A stretch of DNA of 35,312 nucleotides from Kiritimatiellia bacterium (GTDB lineage Bacteria > Verrucomicrobiota > Kiritimatiellia > SS1-B-03-39 > UBA6053), in assembly GCA_018401235.1 (NCBI GenBank), contig JAGYLC010000010.1, forward strand, positions 1 through 35,312, given 5' to 3'. A model generated the notes under the pieces. That model made no database searches. It was not told where the DNA came from and saw only the letters and a program-made list of their open reading frames with translations. Positions 11,861 through 30,615 of this stretch are shown piece after piece. The position numbers and the translations under genes were made by a program. The first letter of the stretch is position 1. Each line of letters starts with the position of its first letter.

Positions 11861-12056
11861 CAAACTCTGAGCTCGCTCGGAGTGCGGAGAAATTCACTTC
11901 ACGATACTGGGCTCCTCCCCGATCCCCACCACTCCGCCGCCGTTAGTTTCCCGCGTGCGGGAAGCTAACGGCGGCGGGGTGGGTGGGGCGGGGGTGTGGA
12001 ACGGGCGAATTCCGGTATTGAATCTCTCCGCACCCCGAGGCGAGCTCAGGGTTTGG
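11861..12056. repeat. 196-bp imperfect inverted repeat with a strong central hairpin
   Basis: The centre (11934-11977) is a near-perfect stem: CCGCCGCCGTTAG pairs with CTAACGGCGGCGG, then a T-G wobble, then TTCCCGC/GCGGGAA with a 2-nt turn. Pairing continues outward through CCCCACC-AC (11924-11932) against GTGGGTGGGG. The outer arms CAAACTCTGAGCTCGCTCGG (from 11861) and the complement of 12019-12056 match at most positions. The arms in between are only weakly similar. A diverged third copy of the outer arm may lie near 12111-12141 (TTCAAACTGAGCTC). It lies between a dead FGE gene and the STAS gene. It could be a MITE-like element, an inverted duplication or a large transcribed hairpin. Confidence 0.7.
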
Positions 12057-21240: not shown

Positions 21241-21375
21241 TTTTTGACAGGATAACAGGATGATCCGGATAGGAAATATCTCATGGAAACAGCCTACAGA
21301 GGGTATAAAACAAATCCAATCCAGGAGTAGAAAGCCAAACAAACCATCCTGCCAATCCTGTTATCCTGTCAAAAA
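21241..21375. repeat. Inverted repeat with 21-bp perfect arms (ATCCTG-type)
   Basis: TTTTTGACAGGATAACAGGAT (21241-21261) is exactly complementary to 21355-21375, with weaker pairing continuing inward and about 93 nt between the arms. The right arm is itself built of 9-nt quasi-repeats, ATCCTGCCA then ATCCTGTTA then TCCTGTC. It lies 29 nt after the NFACT-R stop codon. As RNA it would form a long stem and could end or protect the message. It could also be a small non-autonomous mobile repeat. Confidence 0.85.
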
Positions 21376-21553: not shown

Positions 21554-21694
21554 AGGACCACGGATAGCTTTGCCGGACCACGGATGAAAGAGGGAGTTGA
21601 CACGAAACATTTCAAGTGATGCTGAAGATGAAATGGAATAGGGACTATTTTATTTTGCTTGGTTTTATCCGTGGTCCGGCAGGGCTATCCGTGG
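21554..21694. repeat. CCACGGAT inverted-repeat element, copy 1
   Basis: The 28-nt arm at 21558-21585 pairs with 21667-21694. The only two differences are T-G positions that still pair as wobble in RNA. The left arm contains CCACGGAT twice, separated by AGCTTTGCCGGA. The spacer is 81 nt. A second copy is at 30473-30615. Extra half-units follow this copy up to about 21739. Confidence 0.9.
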
Positions 21695-21776
21695 GTTTCC
21701 TCCACTAAAAACATACGTGGTCCGGCGCAACCATCCGTTGGTATATTTTTTTCAAACAATCTTTTTCTGGAAGATC

Positions 21777-30357: not shown

Positions 30358-30472
30358 AGGATGGGTATAAAGGCGTGGAGTGGATTCGTCAATCAAATCC
30401 GGTCTACGGGATGAGCGCAAAAGAATTCACACATAGTGGAAGAGTATGCGCGGATGTTGCCCAATATAGTTT

Positions 30473-30615
30473 AGGACCACGGATAGCCCTGCCGGACCAC
30501 GGATGAGAAGTGAAGGAGATATGAAGCATTTTCAGATTATTTCTAAGGAAAAAATGGAAGGAGGGGGATAGGTTTTGGCGTATTCCTATCCGTGGTCCGG
30601 CAGGGCTATCCGTGG
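30473..30615. repeat. CCACGGAT inverted-repeat element, copy 2
   Basis: The 28-nt arms at 30477-30504 and 30588-30615 are perfectly complementary. The right arm is identical to that of copy 1 at 21667-21694. The 83-nt spacer is only partly similar to that of copy 1 (both keep a GA-rich start, a CATTT core and AAATGGAA). Confidence 0.92.

Follow-up and report, generated by a model that had tools for sequence, protein, structure and literature searches.

The closest described relatives of the locus presented here are REPINs, which are defined as extragenic inverted doublets whose ends are conserved and whose spacer varies (PMC3116915). In ordinary REPINs, a RAYT (a transposase of the Y1 HUH type) mobilises the REP doublets in trans. 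The papers on REP-like systems that we found describe RAYT and not GxxExxY proteins; for the GxxExxY family, the open-access papers searched contain incidental mentions only, with neither a function nor an association with repeats. A GxxExxY-repeat system is likewise not described in the open-access literature searched, although one may exist all the same; the searches suggest that a partnership between such an enzyme and a repeat is apparently undescribed.

Here we analyse an inverted pair of 28-nt arms in a 35,312-nt stretch of DNA from a Kiritimatiellia bacterium (contig JAGYLC010000010.1; hereafter the window). The source genome, G000, comprises 2.49 Mb in 246 contigs. We regard 30473-30615 as probably a REPIN-like, non-autonomous element, with arms that a two-domain GxxExxY nuclease, resident in the same chromosome, would recognise as its sites. 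The pairing of gene and arms is well supported; that the GxxExxY enzyme mobilises or converts the arms is what we infer from it.

The Inverted Pair in the Window

Two copies of the element lie in the window, with the following features:

30415..30476, minus strand: outer extension of copy 2, about 62 nt (extent approximate), weakly conserved at 44% mean identity in 16 copies
30477..30504, minus strand: left arm of copy 2, CCACGGATAGCCCTGCCGGACCACGGAT, with an 8-nt unit recurring at 20-nt distance and a core that holds a free triplet
30505..30587, no strand: loop of copy 2, 83 nt, homologous to the loops of the family and diverged
30588..30615, plus strand: right arm of copy 2, ATCCGTGGTCCGGCAGGGCTATCCGTGG
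21558..21585, minus strand: left arm of copy 1
21586..21666, no strand: loop of copy 1, 81 nt
21667..21694, plus strand: right arm of copy 1, same letters as the right arm of copy 2
21713..21740, plus strand: third arm, degenerate, in tandem 18 nt past copy 1, ATACGTGGTCCGGCGCAACCATCCGTTG

A sequence-only reading had claimed perfect 28-nt arms for copy 2, and 30477-30504 and 30588-30615 are indeed exact reverse complements; its start at 30473, however, took in four flanking bases (AGGA). Its description of the two copies also agrees with what we found: the right arms are identical in window orientation, and the loops, at 81 and 83 nt, are related but diverged (56% identical). The left arm of copy 1 is two bases off, both in the middle triplet.

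When folded as single-stranded DNA and compared with 200 dinucleotide shuffles, the inverted pairs are far more stable than expected (z = -10.3 for copy 2 and -11.7 for copy 1); a lone arm folds no better than its shuffles (z -0.50 and +0.31). The 28-nt arm pattern has 32 + 38 matches (about 70) in G000 at up to 3 mismatches, against 0 for a reversed-pattern control. Because of these folding scores and the genome-wide count against the control, the inverted pair of copy 2 is not a product of chance. A search of Rfam returned no matching family.

Conservation and Geometry of the Arm Family

The loop is asymmetric, and all elements were turned to one orientation before comparison (n = 16 genomic copies). 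Leaving out the middle triplet, the arms are 99.5% identical; with the triplet included, identity is 96.2% for the left arm and 93.3% for the right. The loops are 53.1% identical, compared with 36.2% for loops shuffled and then realigned, and the 62-nt extension outside one arm reaches 44%. Arms and spacers therefore diverge at very different rates, and the earlier claim that the arms stay constant while the loops drift holds across the 16 copies, without the equal rates that the sequence-only reading had named as its refutation; the unequal divergence also supports the suggestion that the arms are either selected (for protein binding or structure) or homogenised. Even within a single element, the two arms can differ in the middle triplet, which argues against blind copying alone as what keeps the arms alike—a constrained arm with an unconstrained triplet at its centre is suggestive of site recognition.

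Close inverted pairs have a nearly uniform polarity, with 41 R-F pairs and 1 F-R pair at the loci read, and their loop length peaks at 80-83 nt; both observations bear out the idea that arm spacing may matter. Single arms and tandem arrays with a period of 44-50 nt are common. Placement is biased towards intergenic DNA: element midpoints fall within open reading frames of at least 200 aa in 4 of 24 cases, compared with 79% of random points. A CRISPR array was considered for the tandem arrays and rejected, given that the spacers within one array are near-identical and not unique.

A Two-Domain GxxExxY Nuclease at the ars Locus

On contig C101 of G000, an array of arms encloses a 266-codon reverse gene, with six clear arms of R orientation on one side and two of F orientation on the other; the gene adjoins arsC at an arsenic-resistance locus. 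The product is a GxxExxY protein by two profiles, TIGR04256 (104.9 bits; cut-off 35) and PF13366 PDDEXK_3 (100.5 bits; cut-off 22). All 19 proteins compared have the same residues of the GxxExxY motif and of the PD-(D/E)XK site (G26, E29, Y32, D68, K80, and Q93), and the six two-domain proteins also share E78. Its predicted structure (mean pLDDT 94.8) consists of two tandem restriction-endonuclease-like folds; the N domain keeps the catalytic residues, and the C domain is without the ExK motif. The best fold matches in the PDB are SSO0001, LHK-Exo, and lambda exonuclease, with E-values down to 1.3e-4 and full-length TM-scores of only about 0.3, because the query has two tandem domains; a sequence search of the PDB with the nuclease gave no match. 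The closest gene pair has dN 0.08 and dS 0.31, and the resulting dN/dS of about 0.26 indicates that the gene is under purifying selection. Plasmid records yielded one single-domain match only, so the nuclease gene looks chromosomal.

One might expect the arms to be moved by a RAYT, as in ordinary REPINs. The family has the anatomy for it—inverted doublets, conserved ends, a variable spacer, extragenic placement, and tandem arrays (PMC3116915)—and Y1_Tnp genes exist in G000 and its relatives. Yet arms of any type were found at 0 of 22 Y1_Tnp loci (full flanks, nine genomes), these genes are equally frequent in arm-free genomes, and the single arm does not fold, unlike a REP, each of which contains an imperfect palindrome. 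Since we found neither a palindromic REP nor a RAYT bracketed by the repeat, we do not file the arm family as REPIN and consider this explanation unlikely. Other inverted repeats lie near 11 of the 22 Y1_Tnp loci, several with palindromic cores such as CCCCGGAGGGG; with repeats of their own there and the arms at none, the genomes appear to hold RAYT/REP-type systems and, separately, the GxxExxY one.

Between inverted arms at close range, GxxExxY is the only gene found, and no transposase gene was seen there. This bears on a second alternative, in which a classical DDE transposon with terminal inverted repeats of 28 nt left the elements behind as MITE-like relics. Terminal inverted repeats, intergenic placement, conserved orientation, and loop homology across the family would all fit such relics. 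However, the missing transposase gene counts against them, as do the common single arms and tandem arrays; MITEs as a rule do not form singlets or tandem arrays of arms. The arms also stand far above the rest of the element in conservation, which is unexpected for decaying relics, and we judge a MITE-like origin very unlikely.

A third alternative takes the GxxExxY protein for a defence nuclease, with the arms as its own regulatory or protected sites spread by other means. The fold search, which leads to Cas4-like and lambda-exonuclease-like nucleases, is in keeping with this, and so is the rate of change: the nuclease homologues are 43-48% identical, compared with 80-91% for the neighbouring acr3 and arsC, and thus diverge much faster. 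Against it, the ars locus showed no gene for a defence partner, and fixed-polarity pairs, loop length, and about 70 dispersed copies would all be left unexplained. We regard a defence role of this kind as highly improbable.

Co-Occurrence and Co-Variation across Genomes

Only G006, G008, G009, and G010 yielded full-length homologues of the nuclease (43-48% identity); G010 has two, which makes five genes. These four genomes belong to one genus, other than that of G000. All five homologues adjoin arsC and are bracketed by inverted arms of a common layout and other letters. In the six relatives searched that have no such nuclease (G001, G003, G004, G005, G007, and G011), the three arm patterns searched gave no arms. 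Genus-mates of G000 have neither nuclease nor arms and another genus has both, so that host descent by itself does not account for the pairing; one genus contributes four of the five carriers, however, and the co-occurrence therefore represents few independent events.

Across loci, the arms consist of an 8-9 nt unit that recurs after 19-20 nt, on either side of a CGGCNNNG core, in four types with matching nuclease clades: GTGG, TTCG, GTTG, and GCAG. In the protein tree, the two genes with GTTG arms pair (100/100), as do the two with GCAG arms (100/99). G010 holds one gene of each of these kinds, so that arm type tracks the nuclease clade and not the genome. At the orthologous ars position, where acr3 and arsC are 85-90% identical, G000 has GTGG-type arms on either side and G008 has TTCG-type arms. 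Dispersed copies include the resident type—98 GCAG matches in G010 and 18 in G006, 26 TTCG matches in G008, and 46 GTTG matches in a partial sample of G009. Dispersed arms of non-resident types are also present, and may be relics of replaced nucleases.

These observations also weigh on the proposal that the arms are host binding or signal sites under selection (transcript ends, RNase III, or a nucleoid protein), with the nuclease gene merely adjacent. A long intergenic hairpin with conserved arms and drifting loops is what such sites might look like. On the other hand, same-genus genomes are without arms, the letters of the arms change with the nuclease clade, the nuclease gene invariably has arrays to its left and right in inverted order, and Rfam holds no match; host sites are accordingly improbable to us, and recognition by the nuclease remains our preferred reading.

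The sequence-only reading had proposed a search for empty sites and target-site duplications. A neighbouring ars intergenic site is arm-free in G000, whereas the orthologous site holds one arm in G008 and several in G009. A complete genome of the same genus, G002 (400 kb of it used), is too diverged and out of synteny for empty sites at base level, and the genomes of the arm-bearing set are all fragmented MAGs. The GCAG-arm relative in G010 is recently expanded, with about 25 copies, 136 bp between arm ends, and an inner TTCG arm in the loop; on one side or both, the recent copies in G010 have flanks in common, none has two unique flanks, and their ends are variable.

The genes acr3 and arsC are 85-90% identical at the protein level between genera (L061 in G000; L263 in G008; L280 and L265 in G009). 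The nuclease is absent from the same-genus genomes searched (G001, G003, and G004). The ars block including the nuclease may have been transferred horizontally.

Mosaic elements occur in G010 (L292-L329) and G006 (L315), where a GCAG-type pair has a TTCG-type arm inside its loop. The position of the inner arm is fixed, with 31 and 20 nt separating it from the outer arms, and the common flanks of these elements end near CCCGCTGAT / ATCAGCGGG.

Inverted Repeats at Other GxxExxY Genes

Inverted repeats flank 25 of 28 GxxExxY genes in G000 and its relatives, compared with 1 of 150 random places, when flanking is defined as an inverted repeat scoring at least 15 within 500 nt on either side. Most of the flanking arms repeat a unit of about 10 nt, which differs from gene to gene.

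The window has a second kind of inverted repeat at 21241-21375, with ends TTTTTGACAGGATAACAGGAT... / ...ATCCTGTTATCCTGTCAAAAA and a loop of about 75 nt. In a same-genus genome, these ends also lie on either side of a single-domain GxxExxY gene (L215, G001), and 21241-21375 therefore seems to belong to a parallel family as a member that carries no gene. Another GxxExxY gene (L112, at about 18055-18405 of C101 in G000) lies 9 kb from the first; it is flanked by CCACGGAGGCACGGAG-type repeats, with the phrase CTCCAGCGAAGCGGGTGG on both sides. At 11917-11994, the window also contains a near-perfect GC-rich palindrome with 38-nt arms (82% complementary) and a 2-nt gap, which might be a REP-type or terminator-like hairpin.

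In another phylum, the Pirellulales MAG JABWBD01 carries a short-loop version of the arm pair, GGCCCACGGATGGCAGCGCCGGACCACGGAT, with a loop of 10-14 nt (L118, L120, L121, L132, L146, L159, and L169). A cognate gene was predicted in the planctomycete MAGs that carry ATCCGTGG arms and was not found, which makes them an exception to the pairing; the JABWBD01 assembly is without the two-domain gene. The single GxxExxY gene of G039 is of the single-domain kind and lacks arms, no such gene was found in G040, and G041 has a more distant two-domain gene with other repeats flanking it.

Proposed Mechanism and Significance

We propose that the enzyme would nick or cut at the arms, perhaps once an inverted pair extrudes as a hairpin. 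The released piece might then be repaired or inserted, which would give arms at new intergenic sites as well as tandem arrays; cutting together with repair or insertion would keep the arms matched to the enzyme. The loops would drift because they carry little information beyond a roughly constant length.

We put forward a wider reading tentatively, as one that may well not hold: GxxExxY proteins could be the enzymes of a whole repeat-spreading class, parallel to REP/RAYT and built on a PD-(D/E)XK nuclease. Each lineage would have its own iterated inverted arms, and would spread or rewrite the arrays and scattered arm pairs of bacterial chromosomes; 21241-21375 would be another branch. If true, this would provide a function for the GxxExxY family, for which we found no assigned role, and would add a mechanistically different enzyme to REP-like systems. 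The four arm types would offer natural, co-varying protein-DNA pairs as a source for recognition rules, and it would become directly testable how the ends of such repeats stay identical, which is an old question.

Comparison with Known Systems

The arm family resembles REPINs and REP-RAYT (TnpA-REP) systems in its inverted doublets, near-invariant ends, variable spacer, and extragenic placement, in occurring also as singlets and in tandem, and in having an enzyme gene, resident in the chromosome, with these repeats on either side (PMC3116915, PMC8266576, PMC3733652). In contrast to those systems, the enzyme here is a PD-(D/E)XK GxxExxY protein and not a Y1 HUH transposase, and the arm is 28 nt long, with an 8-nt direct repeat around a free-triplet core and no palindrome. 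Like MITEs, the elements are short, non-autonomous, and intergenic, with inverted ends; unlike them, they have no transposase with these ends, occur as singlets and tandem arrays, and have arms far more conserved than the interior. By both profiles (TIGR04256 and PF13366) the partner gene is a member of the GxxExxY family, from which it differs in having two tandem domains, the second without ExK. Finally, the Cas4 and lambda-exonuclease-type PD-(D/E)XK nucleases have the nearest solved folds to the partner protein, although no PDB sequence matches it and full-length TM-scores stay at about 0.3.
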